From the IMG/VR virus record IMGVR_UViG_3300010153_001881, positions 1 to 20,303 of that record: a stretch of DNA of 20,303 nucleotides; one strand, 5' to 3'. The notes beneath the pieces were generated by a model. That model was given only the letters and a program-made list of their open reading frames with translations. It ran no database searches and was not told the DNA's origin. The stretch comes from a virus. Shown one piece after another: positions 9,864 through 20,303 of the stretch (position 1 is the first letter of the stretch; every line of letters starts with the position of its first letter). Both the position numbers and the translations under genes were made by a program.

Positions 9864-10373
9864 ATGCCTAAACAAATACCTAATGATGTTAAGAATCATG
9901 CTCGTGAATTATTTTTAGAAGGTAAATCTGGAAGAGAAATTTCTGAAAGATTATCTAAAGCTTATGATATGAAAATATCTACGCCTGCTGTCTATGAGTG
10001 GGCTAAAAGATTTAAGTGGAAGGACATGGTGGTGGAAGCAGAAACAAAAGCAAAAGAAGAGATAATAGAAAGCGAAGCTCAAAAGCTTCGGAGAATGCAA
10101 GTAGAACATCTAGATGACTATAACGTACTTCGTAGGAAGGCAGTCAAAGAACTAAAAGGTTTGGAATTTGTAAGAGCAGGTGAAGCAGCTAAGGCTCTCG
10201 AAACAGGTATCGAGGGAGAACGCAGAGTTATGCAGGGGATGATTAATTTATCTTTTGTACAAGAAGTTTTAAATATTTTAGTTGAAGAGATATCGGAACA
10301 AGAAACAATAAATAAGATAGCTCTTAGACTACAAACGTTAGTAAGTGATAGTACATCTAATGACAAGCAATAA
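9864..10373 (+). CDS. Terminase small subunit (HTH, TerS-like)
   Basis: This 169-aa protein has an N-terminal helix-turn-helix of the terminase small subunit type (GKSGREISERL, a variable turn, STPAVYEWAKRFKWK, residues ~18-53), then a long, charged coiled-coil or oligomerisation region and a hydrophobic C-terminal helix. TerS proteins form rings that recognise the packaging site and regulate the large subunit. The assignment rests on the HTH, the helical layout and its place directly before the large terminase, which it overlaps by 14 bases. ATG 9864 has GGGAG eight bases upstream. The packaging-site sequence itself cannot be identified. Confidence 0.75.
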   Translation: MPKQIPNDVKNHARELFLEGKSGREISERLSKAYDMKISTPAVYEWAKRFKWKDMVVEAETKAKEEIIESEAQKLRRMQVEHLDDYNVLRRKAVKELKGLEFVRAGEAAKALETGIEGERRVMQGMINLSFVQEVLNILVEEISEQETINKIALRLQTLVSDSTSNDKQ

Positions 10374-12009
10374 ATCAAATGAAATAACAACATATGGAGA
10401 TGCAATACAAAGACTTGCGTCTGGACTCATACAACAAAAGAAATATCATGTAGGTAGTTTTTATGAGTTTCTTAGAGACGTATGGTCACAAAGTTTTGAC
10501 AACCCTGAATATTTTGGAGCTTGGCATGTAGGAATACTTGCTGAAGATATCGAAGAATGTTTAGAAAAAGGTCTTAATTATGTAGCAGTATTACCACGTT
10601 TCCATTTTAAATCAACAATCATGGGCCATGCTTTTAGTGTGTGGAGACTTTTAAAAGCTCCTAGGGATTGTTCTGTTTTATATTTGTCATACAGTGATGG
10701 TATGGCTAGGTATCATTTATCAGAAATAAATAAAACTGTTTCAAGAAATCCTATTCTAACTGACATGATGGAAAATCGTTCTCCAAAGGCAGATTATTCA
10801 TTTAGATATTATATTAATAAAAGACCTATGGAAATTATGCATGGTGGATTATTCTCTTTCAAAAGAGGTATGCACGTTAATGGAGCATTGATTGCTGATG
10901 ACGTATTAAGAGACCCAGAAAATCCACTTAACACAAGTCAGATAACAAAAGTAGAAGACCACTTTATGACAGAAAGTATGTTCATTCCTCTAAAAGGTGT
11001 CCCTGTTGTTGTCTTGGGAACACCTATGATGCCTGGCGACCTGTTAACTAAACTACAGAAGGATGACCGATTTAAAGCAAGAGTATTACCAGCTTTAGAC
11101 CCAACACCTACAAGAAGAGTGTTGATGCCCGAACTGTATTCTGAGAAATGGTTATTACAACAACAAGAAGCTAGACCTAAATCGTTTGCTTCTGAGTTTT
11201 TACTACAACCACACTTTGCAACGGAAGCGTATTTTAATGAGGATGAAATATCTGAATGTGAGGATGAGACACTAAGAAATCATCCAGCGTCAAACATTTA
11301 TAAGAAACAAGAGGAAGAACAATTGTTTGCTGGATTTGACGTGGGTAAAAAAAGACACCCATCACATTTAGTTATTTTCAAAAGAGAAGGAAAGAGGCTA
11401 GTTCAAGTACACCAATCTTGGTTAGATGGTTGGAGTTATTCTGACCAGATAGAATATCTAAATGATATCGCTAAAAACTTTGACTTAGAGAAAGGTTATA
11501 TAGATAATACAAGAGGTGAACTTGAAGACAGAGGATTAGACCCTGTTTGGCACGCAATGCACTTTACATTAAAGAGTAAGCGAACCATGGCTCAAATCTT
11601 TGAAGAGTACGTGAGCAAGCACAATTTAAGCATTATCCAAGATTCAAGACAGAAGTCACAGATTGTTTCAGTCAGTAATGAATTGAAAGCACCTGAAACC
11701 CCTATGGGACACGGTGACGCTTTCTTTTCGATTGCAATGGCTCTCCAAGCAGCTTATGAAACAACTGTTTATAGATATGAATCTCTAGGTAGTGCCACAG
11801 AGTGGTTAAACGCAGTAGACCCTACAGATACAGAAGATGGGGTGGAAGAACTAAAGAAGAAGATTAGCTTAGATTTTACTCCCGTAAACAAGGAGGAAAC
11901 AAATAAGGAACAGGCTCCAAACCCAGATTGTTCGGAAGCTGTTTGTATGCCCAGTTTTTGGGTTCCAGAACGAAATTTATGCATATACTGTGGTCACAGA
12001 GGAAGGTAA
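10360..12009 (+). CDS. Terminase large subunit (ATPase-nuclease)
   Basis: The 549-aa packaging motor has both TerL domains. ATPase: a Walker A-like loop L-P-R-F-H-F-K-S-T (78-86, with Phe where the usual loop has Gly before Lys), a Walker B strand ALIADD (D180-D181) and a coupling segment VVVLGTPMMPGDLL. Nuclease, RNase H-like: D327 in FAGFDVGK, D382 in GYIDNT, and D453 in MGHGDAFFS, the three expected acidic sites. After the nuclease is a charged linker and a C-terminal C524-x4-C529-x11-C541-x2-C544 cluster that looks like a zinc knuckle, unusual for TerL. I prefer ATG 10360 over the in-frame GTG at 10345, though no strong Shine-Dalgarno precedes either. It translocates DNA into the procapsid with the portal encoded downstream. 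Confidence 0.92.
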   Translation: MTSNKSNEITTYGDAIQRLASGLIQQKKYHVGSFYEFLRDVWSQSFDNPEYFGAWHVGILAEDIEECLEKGLNYVAVLPRFHFKSTIMGHAFSVWRLLKAPRDCSVLYLSYSDGMARYHLSEINKTVSRNPILTDMMENRSPKADYSFRYYINKRPMEIMHGGLFSFKRGMHVNGALIADDVLRDPENPLNTSQITKVEDHFMTESMFIPLKGVPVVVLGTPMMPGDLLTKLQKDDRFKARVLPALDPTPTRRVLMPELYSEKWLLQQQEARPKSFASEFLLQPHFATEAYFNEDEISECEDETLRNHPASNIYKKQEEEQLFAGFDVGKKRHPSHLVIFKREGKRLVQVHQSWLDGWSYSDQIEYLNDIAKNFDLEKGYIDNTRGELEDRGLDPVWHAMHFTLKSKRTMAQIFEEYVSKHNLSIIQDSRQKSQIVSVSNELKAPETPMGHGDAFFSIAMALQAAYETTVYRYESLGSATEWLNAVDPTDTEDGVEELKKKISLDFTPVNKEETNKEQAPNPDCSEAVCMPSFWVPERNLCIYCGHRGR

Positions 12010-14370: not shown

Positions 14371-16350
14371 ATGAAGCTCGGAGATTACTTACCCGAAGTT
14401 CCTAAGATTGCACAACAGATGAGTGATTTGAATAGTCAAATCAACATGTTGCAAATGATGCAGAAATCAGCAGGAGACACAGGTTCAGCACCTACTATGG
14501 GATTAGACCATGTAGTTAATACATGGGTTCGACATCAAATGGCGTATCGCCAACAGATGGTTCAAGATATCCAAACTATTGCATATTCAGTAGAAGAAAT
14601 TAGAGCCCCTTTAAACCATATTACGGGTGAAGTATTTAGGCGTGGTATTGAATGGCACGCAACTGTAGAAAATCCAGACCCTAAACAAAAAGAACGTTTA
14701 ATGAAGTTTATGACTGATGCAAACGTGTTTGACCAGAGTATGGAAGAACTACTAAGACAGTTTCACTTTGATTTAAACTCTATTGATGATGCATTCCTTT
14801 ACCTAGCTAAAGAATATAAAGATGTAGGTAATGGTGAAATTAAGTCTAAAGTAATCGAAATCAGACGATTGAACCCTGCATTAGTAGAATTTGACCTAGA
14901 TGCCGCAGGATTACCAAAGAATGCACATTGGATTTGTCCATTAGATAGAACTGATGTAGCTGAAGAACCTGGAAAATCTAAAGCAGGATATGAAAGAATC
15001 CCTGCTATGTATAAGTATTACCATAGAAATCAGCACATGTACTTGGCTGATAATGAAGTAATACACTTAACTAAGTATGCACCATCTGAAACTTATGGGT
15101 GGTCTCCAATACTTACTATATTTGAAAAGGCATTAACTCTAATTGGTATGGATAAGAATCTATACCGATACTTCTTTGAAAGAAAGATGCCTTCGTCTAT
15201 GCTTATGGTGACTACAGATGACCCTGAAAGCTTAAGACGTGAAAGAGACCATATAGCAGCTCAAACTAGAGTAGACCCTAACTATATACCTATGGTTGCT
15301 GTTTCAGCTAGAAACAACAGAGGTAGAGTAGATATGGTAAGACTATTCCACAGTTTACAAGAGATGGACTATCTACCTGTACGACAGGAGATTAGAGAAA
15401 GAGTTGCAGCTATGTGGGGTGTTTCTCCTGCGTGGCAGGGTGCACCTGATGCATTTGGTGGGTTATCACAACAGACTTCACAACTAACTGTAATGAGCAG
15501 AGTGGTGGAAGGTGACCAAAGATTATTCCATGAAAAGATATTCCCATTAATATTACAAGCTTTTGGTATTACAGATTGGACATTAAAGTTACCAAATCCT
15601 GAAGAAAAAGCTGAAAACACTAAGTTAGCTATGGCACAGCAAAGAATTTCTATTGCTACACAATATTTAAACATGGGCTTTGATGTTAAGTTGGCTGCTT
15701 CTGGAGACGTTGAAATGCTTGAGGCAGAGTTTCTAGTTGGTGGAGAAGCAGTTCCACAAGCACAAATGCAAGGTGAACAGCAAGCTATAGGAGTCCAACA
15801 GGCAGAAATGCAGTTACAACAAGCTATACAGCAACAGCAAATGCAAGAGCAACAGCAAGCTATGATGGGTGGTGGTGAACCCGAAGAAGGTGAAATGGCT
15901 CCTGAAGAAGGTGGTGAAGGTGGTGAAGAAGGTATAGAAAAATCAATTCCTGCATCTGAAAGAAAATTTAAAGGACGAATGGGTGGTATAACACCTGATA
16001 ATACTGATAAAGCAGGTGGAACTGATGAAGAAAGAGACCTAGACGAATGGGCAGAAGCTAGAACTAAAGCAGCTGAGGAACGAGATATGGGAATCAAAAA
16101 AGGTAATTCTTGGGTAGGAGACTTAATATCTAGAGGTTACACATCTCCTATAATTAAAGAAGTTAATCCTAATGGAACTCAAATGTGGTTTTCACAGGAC
16201 GGAATAGACTATGTAGCTAAACTAGATTCTTTAGGTATTACAGATGTTGATAAGGCTACCTTTAATGGACCAAAGGTTGAAGCAGAAGATAAGAAACAGA
16301 AGGTACAAGATACTACTATAATGAATGATGGGGATGATGAGGATGAATAA
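14371..16350 (+). CDS. Portal protein
   Basis: The 659-aa protein has features of phage portals: an N-terminal helical region, VEEIRAPLNHITGEVFRRGIEW, a mixed strand/helix body with IEVIRRLNP-type VIEIRRLNPALVEFDL, VIHLTKYAPSETYGWSPI, and the long helix followed by MWGVSPAWQGAPDAFGG, typical of the portal stem and wing. As a dodecamer it forms the DNA entry channel and docks terminase. Residues ~463-497 are Gln-rich and ~500-525 are Gly/Glu-rich, low-complexity blocks. After them is a further ~130-residue C-terminal extension ending in an acidic tail. It lies one gene after the reductase, with GAAGGA before the ATG at 14371. The extension is not part of a standard portal core. Confidence 0.8.
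   Translation: MKLGDYLPEVPKIAQQMSDLNSQINMLQMMQKSAGDTGSAPTMGLDHVVNTWVRHQMAYRQQMVQDIQTIAYSVEEIRAPLNHITGEVFRRGIEWHATVENPDPKQKERLMKFMTDANVFDQSMEELLRQFHFDLNSIDDAFLYLAKEYKDVGNGEIKSKVIEIRRLNPALVEFDLDAAGLPKNAHWICPLDRTDVAEEPGKSKAGYERIPAMYKYYHRNQHMYLADNEVIHLTKYAPSETYGWSPILTIFEKALTLIGMDKNLYRYFFERKMPSSMLMVTTDDPESLRRERDHIAAQTRVDPNYIPMVAVSARNNRGRVDMVRLFHSLQEMDYLPVRQEIRERVAAMWGVSPAWQGAPDAFGGLSQQTSQLTVMSRVVEGDQRLFHEKIFPLILQAFGITDWTLKLPNPEEKAENTKLAMAQQRISIATQYLNMGFDVKLAASGDVEMLEAEFLVGGEAVPQAQMQGEQQAIGVQQAEMQLQQAIQQQQMQEQQQAMMGGGEPEEGEMAPEEGGEGGEEGIEKSIPASERKFKGRMGGITPDNTDKAGGTDEERDLDEWAEARTKAAEERDMGIKKGNSWVGDLISRGYTSPIIKEVNPNGTQMWFSQDGIDYVAKLDSLGITDVDKATFNGPKVEAEDKKQKVQDTTIMNDGDDEDE
15757..15940 (+). repeat. 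Low-complexity Gln-rich then Gly/Glu-rich coding tract in the portal gene
   Basis: This stretch of the portal gene is made of short imperfect repeats. First come many CAA/CAG codons (portal residues ~463-497), then GGT/GAA-rich repeats encoding Gly-Glu blocks (residues ~500-525). Such tracts can change length by slippage and are expected to form a flexible linker between the portal core and its C-terminal extension. Confidence 0.8.
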
Positions 16351-16522
16351 TCTACAAAAACTTCTTTTGTTTATACAGAAAGACTTTGGTGGTGGTGCAG
16401 GAACAGTTGCAACTACTACTGATGCAGGTTCTCCAGGATATCACACCCCAACTTTTGGGGGAGGTTTCTCAGGACCAAAGAAAAAGAAAAAGGAAAACGC
16501 CGAATTTAAATTTACATATTAA
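16343..16522 (+). CDS. Small Gly-rich basic-ended protein (59 aa)
   Basis: This is a small protein of unknown function next to the portal. It has a short hydrophobic helix (NNLQKLLLFIQKDF), a Gly/Thr-rich middle (FGGGAGTVATTTDAGSPGYHTPTFGGG) and a basic KKKKKE stretch. Small proteins with this helix, then Gly-rich TDAG..TPTFGG segment, then Lys tail, appear familiar to me from uncultured marine phage genomes next to head genes, without a known role. The portal end supplies several in-frame ATGs (16325, 16328, 16334, 16337, 16343). I chose the last because a GATGAGG stretch precedes it and it barely overlaps the portal stop. A start at 16325 would add six Met/Gly/Arg residues. Confidence 0.65.
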   Translation: MNNLQKLLLFIQKDFGGGAGTVATTTDAGSPGYHTPTFGGGFSGPKKKKKENAEFKFTY

Positions 16523-16530
16523 GGATTAAC

Positions 16531-17967
16531 ATGGATAAACCTTTACGAAGACCTGATACAGCTTTTACTTCCCGAAACTATCGCAGTACTCAAAAACCAA
16601 AACGAAAAACCGTAGTAAGAGATGGGATTGATAAGTTAGAAAACTTCTTAGATGAATACAGTCCCCAAATGCAAAAGAGTTCTTCTGCTATCATTGCATT
16701 AATTAATAGTATACTAAAGAATGATGGCCCTCCTATGACTAGTACTGTAGGTGAGGGCGTTGGAAATAAAACACCTAGAGGCAGTCTTGGACCTAAAATA
16801 GTGGACTTCGATAAAGAAAAAGAAAAACATACTGAAAGAAAAGGTAATCCTGAAGATTATGTTCTAGAGGAACAGAATGACATAGAACGAAAAATACGAG
16901 GATACCGAAAAGATGAAAAAGACCCTGGGCCTGAAAACACTATGGATGCTGGAGCAATGGGTTCGGGAACTGTAGATGTTGCGAAACAGTTTACTGGTTG
17001 GGATTGGAAAGGGCAGCAAGGTGAATACAAACGTGGAGCTGAAAAAGATAAGATAGATGATAATCCTGAAATACAAAAAGATAATGTGGATAGATTAATA
17101 TCTGATTTGATGAAAGCAGAAGACGGTGATAAGTACAAAGAAGATGATGACTATGTAGAAACCCCAACTGACGAGGATAAAGAAATTTTAACAAGAGATA
17201 ATGATTCAACTAGGGGAACTTATACAGGTAATAATGCCGCATATAACTATACCCAAACATTAAACAAGGCAGAAACCATAAAAGACTTAAAGTGGACTGA
17301 TGATAATGAGTTATCCGAAAAGGCTAGGAAGAAGGCTGACAGAGAACTTGAACTATTTAACATGAGTCTAAACGATGTAGATGCAATAGAGTTACCAGGA
17401 TTTGAATCAAACGAAAGTAAGAAAGTAAAATCTGAACTTGAACAAGTTAAAACAGCTAATGATAACTTCCATGAAAATGAAAAAAAGAAAAAGTGGCATG
17501 ATAAAGCTATAGAAGTTCAAGATGATGAACTATTTGAATCGTTTATTGATTTAGCTAGAGTTTTAGATATGTATCAGAAATCAAAGGATAAACTGAATCT
17601 TAAGATGGAAAGCTTTAAAGCTCTTAGAAAAGAGACTGGAACTATAATATTACGTATGAAATTAAAGTATAACAGACCACGACCTGCAGCTTTGTTAGAC
17701 TACCATGGAGTAAAGATATCTCCAAAGGATTTGCCAATGGCAAGGACACCATCTTATCCATCGGGACATGCTTGTCAGGCTAAACTGATAGCTATGATAT
17801 TAAGTAAGAAGTATCCTCAATATGAGAAACGATTTATGAGTTTATCAAAAGAGATTGCTCAGAATAGAGTAATCGCAGGGGTACATTTTCCAAGTGATTC
17901 AAAGGCTGGTTGGTTCCTAGCTGATGAAATATATGATAAACTAAATATAGATAAATTAGATATTTGA
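16531..17967 (+). CDS. PAP2-family phosphatase domain fused to a long charged N-terminal region
   Basis: In this 478-aa protein, residues 1 to about 325 are highly charged and polar, rich in Asp, Lys, Glu, Asn and Gly, with no recognisable domain and probably disordered. Residues ~330-478 hold the three motifs of the type 2 phosphatidic acid phosphatase / vanadium haloperoxidase fold: K377-x6-R384-P385, P410-S411-G412-H413, and R446-x5-H452-x3-D456. The third motif begins Asn-Arg, not Ser-Arg. His413 and His452 would be the acid/base and nucleophile. No transmembrane helices are visible, so it is a soluble form, unlike the lipid phosphatases in membranes. Location among head genes suggests a virion-associated or assembly protein with an enzymatic domain. 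The ATG at 16531 has AAGGAT upstream. Confidence 0.8.
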   Translation: MDKPLRRPDTAFTSRNYRSTQKPKRKTVVRDGIDKLENFLDEYSPQMQKSSSAIIALINSILKNDGPPMTSTVGEGVGNKTPRGSLGPKIVDFDKEKEKHTERKGNPEDYVLEEQNDIERKIRGYRKDEKDPGPENTMDAGAMGSGTVDVAKQFTGWDWKGQQGEYKRGAEKDKIDDNPEIQKDNVDRLISDLMKAEDGDKYKEDDDYVETPTDEDKEILTRDNDSTRGTYTGNNAAYNYTQTLNKAETIKDLKWTDDNELSEKARKKADRELELFNMSLNDVDAIELPGFESNESKKVKSELEQVKTANDNFHENEKKKKWHDKAIEVQDDELFESFIDLARVLDMYQKSKDKLNLKMESFKALRKETGTIILRMKLKYNRPRPAALLDYHGVKISPKDLPMARTPSYPSGHACQAKLIAMILSKKYPQYEKRFMSLSKEIAQNRVIAGVHFPSDSKAGWFLADEIYDKLNIDKLDI

Positions 17968-18242
17968 TTAAATGTGATAAATGTCGTGGACTAATGCGAC
18001 TTAACGAAGATAAAGACTTACACTGTTTTACTTGTGGTAAGATAGTAGTATTAGAGATAAGGAGAGAGTATGACTCATATCCCAGAAGAGGCAAAAAACG
18101 GAATAATAAAGAGGAAGCTAGCAGGGTGGAGTTGGGCAGACATAGCAGTATGGGTGAAGGAGAATTACCACTTCGAGGCTCATCGAACAACTTTTCAAAA
18201 GTGGTACGACAGAGAGGTTTCACTAAGAGAAGGTCTCTCTGA
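17964..18242 (+). CDS. Zinc-ribbon protein, overlapping the next gene
   Basis: This frame begins at a TTG overlapping the previous stop (TTGA) and encodes MIKCDKCRGLMRL, then LHCFTCGKIVV, giving C-x2-C-x13-C-x2-C, a well-formed zinc ribbon in the first 30 residues. The frame then runs on as 57 basic residues through the start of the metallophosphoesterase gene in another frame, to a stop at 18242, an overlap of 173 bases. The first 106 bases would otherwise be a non-coding gap, and the ribbon is too regular to be chance. The tail may be real or the protein may be shorter in relatives. No clear Shine-Dalgarno precedes the TTG; coupling to the upstream gene is likely. Function unknown, possibly nucleic-acid binding. 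Confidence 0.55.
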   Translation: MIKCDKCRGLMRLNEDKDLHCFTCGKIVVLEIRREYDSYPRRGKKRNNKEEASRVELGRHSSMGEGELPLRGSSNNFSKVVRQRGFTKRRSL

Positions 18243-19413
18243 AGAAGAATCTAATGAGATGCCAACAGATTTTTCCCCTGACGCACACGCTAAACTCATA
18301 AAGAGGATTGAAAAATTTAAGGGCGAATCAAGATATTGGAAAAAAGTTGCCGAATCAGCTCTTAAACAAGAGGCAAAAAAAGAACTATTAGTAGATGCAG
18401 TAAAGAAATTCACTCCTTCTTATAAACAAATTGCAAAATACCAGCATCGAAAACCATCAGGTAAGATACGAGGGGCCAGTAAACAAACTGTTGTCGCACC
18501 ACTTACAGATACTCACGTTGGCGATAATGTAGAAGCAGACCAAATGGTAGGCTTAAATGCTTACAACATAGATATATTTAATAAAAGATTACATGGGTGG
18601 GCGAATCAACTTTTAAAATTAGTAGAACTTAGACGAAACTCTGTAGAAGTAGAGGAACTTGTCATTCCTATGTTAGGGGATATGATTAGTGGAGACATTC
18701 ATGATGAGTTAGCAAGAACTAATAATGACCATAATATGGGACAGATGATACGAGGAGCCAATCTAATTGCTCAAGCATTACTGTTTCTAGCTCCCCACTT
18801 TAAAAAAGTACGTGTACCTTGTGTAGTTGGTAATCATGGTCGTATGACTAGGAAACCCCCTATGAAGAATAAGTATATGGATTGGGATTATATGTTGTAC
18901 CAATGGGTTGCGACTTTCTGTAAAAAACAAAAGAACATAGAGTTCCATATTCCAAAATCATTTATGACTACAGTAAAAGTTCAAAATAGAAATATACTTT
19001 TATCACATGGAGATTTCATAAATGGTGCAGGAAGTGGTACTGCTATAAGTAAAGGTATAAATAATATGCGAAATGTCTTGCAGTTCAGAAAAGGTTTGCA
19101 AGAAGAAATAGGTAATTTACGAAATGAGTATGCAGCTTTACCAGATTATTTTGATTCGGTATTAATTGGACACTTCCATAGAATTGATGAAATAGATATT
19201 GGTACAGGTGCAATACATATATGTGGTTGTATGAAAGGTGGAGACGAATTTGCTATGCAACGAGTCCAAGCTATTAACAAACCAAGACAATTAGTACTAT
19301 ACTATCACCCAAAATATGGAGAGATAGGTAAAGATATTATTTATTTGAACAGATATGATGACACTTCTCAAGCATTTAATGATGTTTTAAGCGAAGTTTG
19401 GACCTCTAATTAG
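18070..19413 (+). CDS. HTH domain fused to a calcineurin-like metallophosphoesterase
   Basis: The 447-aa protein starts at ATG 18070 after a strong AAGGAGAGAG site. Residues ~8-50 form a helix-turn-helix (GWSWADIAVWVKENY, TTFQKWYDREV) resembling that of small terminases and other DNA-binding phage proteins. A helical linker follows. Residues ~140-400 have all the metallophosphoesterase motifs: D147-x-H149, G203-D204, G254-N255-H256, H313 in LSHGD, and G367-H368-F-H370. These enzymes use two metal ions to cut phosphomonoesters or phosphodiesters, and phage members include DNA nucleases of the Mre11/SbcD type. The HTH suggests a DNA-directed or DNA-tethered enzyme. It stands among virion genes, so it may act in packaging or be injected; neither is proven. 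Confidence 0.85.
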   Translation: MTHIPEEAKNGIIKRKLAGWSWADIAVWVKENYHFEAHRTTFQKWYDREVSLREGLSEEESNEMPTDFSPDAHAKLIKRIEKFKGESRYWKKVAESALKQEAKKELLVDAVKKFTPSYKQIAKYQHRKPSGKIRGASKQTVVAPLTDTHVGDNVEADQMVGLNAYNIDIFNKRLHGWANQLLKLVELRRNSVEVEELVIPMLGDMISGDIHDELARTNNDHNMGQMIRGANLIAQALLFLAPHFKKVRVPCVVGNHGRMTRKPPMKNKYMDWDYMLYQWVATFCKKQKNIEFHIPKSFMTTVKVQNRNILLSHGDFINGAGSGTAISKGINNMRNVLQFRKGLQEEIGNLRNEYAALPDYFDSVLIGHFHRIDEIDIGTGAIHICGCMKGGDEFAMQRVQAINKPRQLVLYYHPKYGEIGKDIIYLNRYDDTSQAFNDVLSEVWTSN

Positions 19414-19457: not shown

Positions 19458-19544
19458 ATGTCTACTAACGTTTTAATCAAAATAAGTATGTTTGTAGCTG
19501 TGTGTCTATCCCTTTTGCTAACTATTGGCGAACTTTATAGCTAG
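19458..19544 (+). CDS. Putative single-pass membrane micropeptide (28 aa)
   Basis: This short frame encodes a polar MSTN start, one hydrophobic stretch (VLIKISMFVAVCLSLLLTI, residues ~5-23) and a polar end. It lies in the only noticeable gap of the region and its stop abuts the next Shine-Dalgarno. The purine site AGGGGG ends 12 bases before the ATG, longer than usual, so start efficiency is doubtful. Very small membrane peptides of this type act in phages as holins, lysis accessories or structural anchors. No specific role can be given. Confidence 0.4.
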   Translation: MSTNVLIKISMFVAVCLSLLLTIGELYS

Positions 19545-19557
19545 GGAGAAAACATTT

Positions 19558-20303
19558 ATGAGCATCATTAATGCACTGAAAAAAGTTGGAAATACTTTAT
19601 TGAGTCTGTTTACATTCTTCACCATTATTGGTGGAGCTTTTGGTCTTACCTTAACATTAGTTAATCCAGTTAACTTATGGTGGTCAATAGCACCGATAGA
19701 AACACCATTCGGAATAGTTACCTATTCTAGTGTCATGACATATTTAGAATATGTTCAAGCAAACTATTACTATGCACTTGGTATATCTGTAACCACACTT
19801 CTACTAGGACTAATTGTCCATATTAGAAGCTTTAAACAAATAAAAGATATAATAAAAGCAGCTCCAATGGCTATATTAAAATCGCCTCTTTATATATATA
19901 ACGATGTAAAGACTCTTAGAGATTGGGTATTTGAAAAGATTGAATACCTAAATGGTGAATCTGTTAAATGGAGACGATTCTTTGCAGTAATGAAATCACC
20001 GTATAGTATGCTTAGAGCTATGGGATTAAATCCTCAAATGGCTATTGGTTTATTAGTAGCTGGTGGTACTGCATCAACAGCAGTAGCAGTTAATGAATTA
20101 GTAATTGAAAGAAGCTTTGCTAATGGTTCTCCGGGAATATACGCTGCTCCATCAGAATTTCCTGATGAAACACTAGAAAAAGAAATGGCGTGGAGAAAAG
20201 ATAATCCACAAGACAATACATTAAGAATTGTACTTGGGACTACTCCAGTTGAAGAAATAAATATTTCTAATGTATCAATCGGTACTGCATACACAGGTTC
20301 GGC
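19558..20303 (+). CDS. Membrane-anchored protein, probably structural or morphogenesis (3' end outside window)
   Basis: The frame opens at ATG 19558, preceded by AGGGAG, and has no stop before the window ends, so 248 residues are visible. Hydrophobic segments occur at about residues 13-36 (LLSLFTFFTIIGGAFGLTLTLV) and 71-89 (YALGISVTTLLLGLIVHI), with a Gly/Ala-rich hydrophobic stretch at ~160-179 (QMAIGLLVAGGTASTAVAV). The two first segments look transmembrane. After residue 180 the sequence becomes polar and beta-like, with Gly, Thr and Asn (LGTTPVEEINISNVSIGTAYT), typical of virion proteins. A role in a virion or envelope-spanning structure is possible, but I recognise no family. It directly follows the 28-aa membrane peptide. 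Confidence 0.6.
   Translation, partial: MSIINALKKVGNTLLSLFTFFTIIGGAFGLTLTLVNPVNLWWSIAPIETPFGIVTYSSVMTYLEYVQANYYYALGISVTTLLLGLIVHIRSFKQIKDIIKAAPMAILKSPLYIYNDVKTLRDWVFEKIEYLNGESVKWRRFFAVMKSPYSMLRAMGLNPQMAIGLLVAGGTASTAVAVNELVIERSFANGSPGIYAAPSEFPDETLEKEMAWRKDNPQDNTLRIVLGTTPVEEINISNVSIGTAYTGS

Follow-up and report, generated by a model that had tools for sequence, protein, structure and literature searches.

The gene studied here raises the question of what a soluble phosphatase does when it is encoded in a phage head-gene cluster and carried on a long, charged arm, and whether such an enzyme is packaged in the virion. It lies in a 20.3 kb window (20,303 nucleotides, the whole stretch of DNA that was analysed) from an uncultured virus, which encodes on one strand a primase-like protein, a DNA polymerase I, RecA-like and RuvC-like proteins, a terminase, a ribonucleotide reductase and a portal protein. 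The features on which the analysis is based are the following:

10345..12009, plus strand: terminase large subunit (TerL; phrog_38, 8e-25)
14371..16350, plus strand: portal protein (phrog_18178, 2.4e-37)
16325..16522, plus strand: 65-aa ORF that overlaps the portal stop and contains GGGAGTVATTTDAGSPGYHTPTFGG (comparison with the arms of relatives)
16531..17967, plus strand: whole gene, arm plus PAP2 phosphatase, 478 aa (homologues L002, L044 and L006-L010)
16531..17373, plus strand: arm, approximately residues 1-281, charged, predicted to be disordered, with motifs common to arms that lack PAP2
17374..17964, plus strand: soluble PAP2 domain, residues 282-478, class A acid phosphatase-like (Pfam, AF2, structure and profile matches)
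18070..19413, plus strand: calcineurin-like phosphoesterase/exonuclease-like gene (phrog_284, 4.2e-47; synteny)
19525..20301, plus strand: membrane-anchored head-cluster protein, cut by the window end (syntenic in relatives)

The gene order TerS-like, TerL, portal, 65-aa ORF and the gene at 16531-17967 confirms the head-gene-cluster setting proposed in the preliminary description. In nearly all relatives the calcineurin-like gene comes after the arm gene, and in relative L009 the same block extends as far as a major capsid protein of the SU10 type (PF17236, 1.8e-9). The GGGAGTVATTTDAGSPGYHTPTFGG stretch of the 65-aa ORF likely represents a detached copy of the GTVFTSTNSGIFTPTYGG segment with which the arm begins in other members. 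We also observed that the acidic C-terminal tail of the portal (approximately 130 aa) contains the motif RKFKGRMGGITPDNTDKAGGTDEERD... (TPDNTDKAGGTDEERD), which appears again in the post-portal proteins of relatives (L045 and the 1105-aa proteins mentioned below) and may be a common signal for head interaction or cleavage. The head cluster of some relatives additionally includes a PnrA-like ABC-transporter substrate-binding protein with a lipoprotein-like signal (L034:16433-17575; PF02608, 8e-20).

The gene is an uninterrupted ORF, with a Shine-Dalgarno-like AAGGA upstream of its ATG. Assembly artefact was rejected as an origin of the fusion, which recurs in at least nine contigs from different samples, and decay of the PAP2 domain was likewise rejected, as both the arm and the domain are under purifying selection (pairwise dN/dS approximately 0.07-0.28) and every catalytic residue is kept. 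PADLOC gave no defence match for the protein. As described earlier, the N-terminus is long, charged and of low complexity (38% charged residues, classed as disordered by the Uversky criterion), but its border had been placed at about residue 325; in the AF2 model the folded domain begins at about residue 282, and since residues 282-375 are part of the same helical domain, the arm comprises about 280 residues.

Pfam PAP2 (PF01569) matched residues 376-464 with 46.7 bits against a cut-off of 27.2 (E 3.4e-12), and the motif residues K377-x6-R384-P385, P410-S-G-H413 and R446-x5-H452-x3-D456 were all present. No membrane helix was found, the 19-residue Kyte-Doolittle mean over the whole protein peaking at 0.58, so that Pfam score, motifs and hydropathy agree with the earlier claim of a soluble PAP2 domain that retains its catalytic motifs. 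We then scanned viral contigs with a pattern consisting of RPRP, 23 residues and YPSGH, which matched at least 120 contigs; among the matches listed, essentially all were soluble homologues. In 103 aligned viral homologues taken from the matches listed (22-58% identical), all motif residues were invariant, RPRP and YPSGH being imposed by the search pattern and K377, R446, H452 and D456 being free of it. The preliminary description had named lack of the His residues in homologues as grounds for abandoning its reading; H452 is invariant in the 103 sequences independently of the pattern, while H413 is imposed by it. We consider it very probable that the protein is an active soluble phosphatase.

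To collect relatives of the arm, a search with the portal was followed by a search with the arm, which resulted in 96 distinct arm-bearing contigs, the close relatives being metagenomic and mostly partial. The arm is conserved without PAP2, and at least 79 contigs have a relative of it behind the portal gene. Among the 79 arm contigs that contain a portal, the arm ORF touches or overlaps the portal stop in 51; it lies within 900 bp of the portal in 11 and further downstream, about one gene away, in 17. The motifs TAFTS, G-I-x-K/R-L-x-x-F-L-x-E-Y-S-P and DDNPEI are also present in arms that lack PAP2, and the family as a whole has in common the blocks FTS(T)...PTYG and GI-x-(K/R)L-x-x-FL...SP, plus further conserved blocks. 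The arm matched no Pfam or PHROGs family, the MuF domain included, though such searches may miss remote homology, and tblastn with the arm as query against 50,697 deposited phage records found nothing. In one clade, a 1105-aa protein is encoded between the portal and the arm gene (L034:11665-14979, with homologues in L022-L040); it combines a CCA tRNA nucleotidyltransferase (head, RNA-binding and HD regions), an integrase/topoisomerase IB-like region and the portal-tail-like motif.

What the arm carries differs among the 96 contigs. PAP2 was found in 9 contigs (and in 3 more that are cut), HNH together with PAP2 in 2 (L119 and L139), an HNH nuclease in 2, topoisomerase IB in 9 (PF01028, E down to 2.3e-14) and DUF6321 in 8, while a methyltransferase-like domain and an HExxH-motif protein were each found in 1 contig and are weak or motif-level domain calls. 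Most arms have no recognisable enzyme, and some stand alone. Because the same slot in related phages holds other enzymes, PAP2 is one interchangeable payload; from the sequences compared, it is the arm that stays constant and PAP2 that is swapped, a point absent from the preliminary description.

Exchange was also observed between close relatives. The synonymous distance between L010 and L009 was 0.04 for PAP2 vs 0.31 for the arm, between L010 and L007 it was 1.72 vs 0.35, and between L006 and L008 it was 0.54 vs 0.13, indicating that the arm and PAP2 recombine independently and have separate histories among close relatives. Three long contigs whose arm is without PAP2 encode PAP2 at a second locus, in a protein of 1032-1231 aa near structural-looking genes. 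Two other long arm-bearing contigs (G090 and G094) have no PAP2 anywhere, and an essential role of PAP2 is therefore unsupported.

More distant portal relatives have other genes in this position. In L259, whose portal is 49% identical to that of the window, a DUF192 plus ADP-ribosyltransferase protein (1.2e-15) and a NUDIX gene lie behind the portal. This contig (JACOXG010000010.1, 110 kb, from groundwater) was binned to a Candidatus Daviesbacteria MAG, and its portal suggests that a phage of this wide group exists in groundwater; the assignment would reflect a genuine host relationship or else a mistake in binning. Of the cultured portal relatives, the nearest are haloviruses such as HCTV-5, in which HNH, ADP-ribosyltransferase and Mu gpF-like genes follow the portal.

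Taken together, these results suggest an arm on which exchangeable enzymes are borne in the head for delivery to the host, and on balance we lean towards the protein of the window being a virion cargo protein that is head-targeted by its arm and delivered to the host. The preliminary description had proposed a virion- or procapsid-associated enzyme, which the context now favours (an arm family behind the portal, varied enzyme fusions, and ADP-ribosyltransferase or MuF-like genes in the slot); packaging itself, as well as injection, a cytoplasmic target and the substrate, we infer from this context. The alternative that survives best is head morphogenesis only, where the arm would be a scaffold-like or minor head protein and PAP2, never injected, would work at the assembly stage in the infected cell or the procapsid. 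This would fit an arm that adjoins the portal and is often alone, as well as the PAP2 fusion of L217, which lies between portal-position and capsid-position genes near TerL. However, it leaves unexplained both the interchangeable topoisomerase IB, HNH, methyltransferase-like and PAP2 domains on the same arm and the ADP-ribosyltransferases in the slot of distant relatives, and we regard it as unlikely.

PAP2 relatives of the window type are frequent in uncultured viral contigs, which the earlier reading had missed. Among the matches listed from the at least 120 pattern-found viral PAP2 loci, most are stand-alone genes; many are far from TerL or the portal where either could be located (placement of stand-alone genes used the T4 portal, PF07230, and TerL, phrog_2), and some are near replication genes. 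PAP2 can thus act outside the head, and since stand-alone genes are generally outside head clusters, we restrict the proposed carriage in the head to arm fusions and do not extend it to the whole PAP2 family. No PHROGs PAP2 family recognised any protein tested, and five tblastn queries, four viral PAP2 proteins and a longer PAP2 fusion, found no relatives in genuine cultured phages among the 50,697 deposited records. Phage-record matches were rejected as relatives, those with E < 1e-3 being bacterial-type sequences filed as phages and the rest being weak. Frequent in metagenomic viral contigs and absent from PHROGs and the cultured genomes searched, this family represents a class of viral phosphatases that is currently unannotated. 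BFVD contains two close unnamed viral models, A0A1B1IV46 and A0A516M0A2.

Several of these viral PAP2 domains belong to larger proteins. In an unrelated virus contig PAP2 and topoisomerase IB (PF01028, 3.8e-29) are part of one protein of at least 1353 aa (L173:2-4060, and also L231). In L217:4995-7307 (minus strand), the fusion between portal-position and capsid-position genes mentioned above, which lies near a phrog_2 terminase and directly upstream of the capsid-like gene, PAP2 is fused N-terminally to a protein of approximately 550 aa that gave no family match and is a possible protease or scaffold. T4-like marine phages encode proteins of approximately 990 aa (L230:2513-5470, minus strand; also L183, L190 and L244) that combine PAP2 with a nucleotidyltransferase and a cytidylyltransferase/NMNAT-like domain (phrog_3041, phrog_395), and in L250 PAP2 is joined to what by eye is an apparent HNH region. 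The fusions of L201, L203, L169, L207 and L250 begin with MKSF... or MKTF... (e.g. MKSFLQTIQEE, MKTFLQVIKEQ), peptides that may resemble the T4 capsid targeting sequence and that we treat as a lead.

The stand-alone genes, some of them near replication genes, bear on a second alternative, in which a late-expressed phosphatase serves nucleotide recycling or phosphate release in an ocean poor in phosphate and the fusion to the arm is accidental. Such a role is compatible with the known substrates of class A acid phosphatases, which include nucleotides and sugar phosphates. Against it, the arm-PAP2 fusion is stable in at least nine contigs of two clades, and HNH plus PAP2 is found separately on the arm. 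In addition, no signal peptide was found, the N-terminus of the charged arm being without a hydrophobic stretch, and an enzyme that has no export signal cannot scavenge extracellular phosphate. We consider a purely metabolic role quite improbable.

The fold of the domain was then compared with those of other phosphatases. Modelling of residues 282-478 by AF2 with the 103-homologue alignment gave a pLDDT of 95.7 and a pTM of 0.92, while the full-length model (7 sequences) had a pLDDT of 36 and was uninformative on the arm. The top structural match of the domain model was 7f17, a class A acid phosphatase of P. aeruginosa (Z 18.8, rmsd 2.5 over 179 residues), followed by PhoN (Z 17.5); the best membrane lipid phosphatases trailed (LpxE, Z 14.4; 5jki, Z 14.5), and haloperoxidases reached Z 11-14. 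In agreement with this, a profile search with the PAP2 domain gave 1.3e-27 for 7f17, 2e-18 for PhoN and 6e-9 for LpxE, and for haloperoxidases short matches alone, at approximately 1e-5. The match to the NCBIfam undecaprenyl-diphosphatase SepP was weak (28 bits against a cut-off of 250). The class A signature, G-S-Y-P-S-G-H-T, reads T-P-S-Y-P-S-G-H-A in the window protein, the flanking G and T being replaced. Since both sequence and structure matches put class A acid phosphatases first, the domain is predicted to be a class A-like soluble phosphomonoesterase by ancestry; we call it class A-like and not a member of the class because, unlike the secreted class A enzymes, it is without a signal peptide.

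The same comparisons do not favour the lipid or undecaprenyl-carrier substrate of the preliminary description. An enzyme that dephosphorylates lipid or undecaprenyl (pyro)phosphates in the envelope during entry would be in keeping with the PAP2 superfamily, which includes such enzymes, with the SepP match and with the finding of LpxE in the profile search; however, the nearest enzymes are the soluble class A ones, which outscore LpxE and 5jki, and the protein has neither signal peptide nor membrane helix, making this reading very unlikely. A vanadium haloperoxidase-like enzyme, with the same active-site architecture and a fold in common, is thinkable for a virus of marine origin, but haloperoxidases rank below the acid phosphatases in all comparisons and their large N-terminal half is missing here, so that we give it hardly any weight.

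Returning to carriage in the head, the arm of about 280 aa would bring the protein into or onto the procapsid, close to the portal, and the C-terminal PAP2 phosphomonoesterase would ride in the head and enter the host with the DNA. Soon after entry it would hydrolyse a soluble phosphate ester in the host cytoplasm, a nucleotide or similar molecule being the likeliest candidate. By analogy with PhoN and the E. blattae acid phosphatase, K377, R384, S411-G412 and R446 would hold the phosphate, while H452, oriented by D456, would attack and become transiently phosphorylated, with H413 as the general acid. The nucleotide substrate mentioned in the preliminary description is plausible: the payloads of the arm are mostly nucleic-acid or nucleotide enzymes and the nearest relatives of this PAP2 domain are soluble-ester enzymes, which makes a nucleotide-like substrate our best guess, and probably the right one as judged from company and ancestry. 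A further, tentative step, which we hold to be possible and rather doubtful, is that the arm would be a general cargo-loading module of many marine phages, with PAP2, HNH, topoisomerase IB and methyltransferase domains as exchangeable virion cargo, and that PAP2 would be injected as a new kind of counter-defence enzyme, breaking down nucleotide signals or disabling the host in some other way within the first minutes of infection.

Among known enzymes, the class A acid phosphatases (PhoN, PhoC, 7f17) have the same soluble all-helical PAP2 fold, the same catalytic residues and a similar domain size, but they are secreted, periplasmic proteins, whereas the window protein is fused to an arm, encoded in a phage head cluster and has no signal peptide. 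The membrane PAP2 lipid and undecaprenyl phosphatases have multiple transmembrane helices, unlike the window protein, which has none. Giant and eukaryotic virus PAP2 proteins in BFVD also belong to the viral PAP2 superfamily, yet their structural matches are weak (E > 0.02).

Among phage systems, the MuF (gpF/gp7) head proteins are portal-adjacent and fused to enzymatic effectors, and a gpF-like gene occupies the slot in HCTV-5, but no MuF domain was detected in the window protein with Pfam or PHROGs. The T4 capsid targeting sequence is a short N-terminal peptide, whereas the arm of the window protein has about 280 aa, and we know of no phosphatase among the T4 internal proteins. These internal proteins are diverse, packaged in the head and injected, with only the capsid targeting sequence in common (PMC3012670); T4 Alt is a head-located enzyme (PMC5512222), and the P1 Dar proteins are a precedent for head-carried cargo that is co-delivered with the DNA (PMC12810830). 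Polyvalent proteins are portal-linked and join, and exchange, enzyme domains of unlike kinds; their packaging and injection have been predicted (Iyer et al. 2017, PMC5512222). The gene studied here likewise belongs to the head cluster of a phage with portal and terminase; polyvalent proteins have two or more disparate enzyme domains, whereas the window protein has one, and L119 and L139 combine HNH with PAP2. Neither PAP2 nor a phosphatase appears in the main text of the polyvalent-protein paper (PMC5512222), and the main texts of jumbo-phage papers in the open-licence literature do not mention PAP2. The arrangement is thus not categorically new, being a known head-cargo strategy with a PAP2 payload. 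If this is true, a phosphatase joins the known head-carried phage enzymes, and the arm would be a natural modular tag for loading enzymes into the heads of uncultured marine phages.
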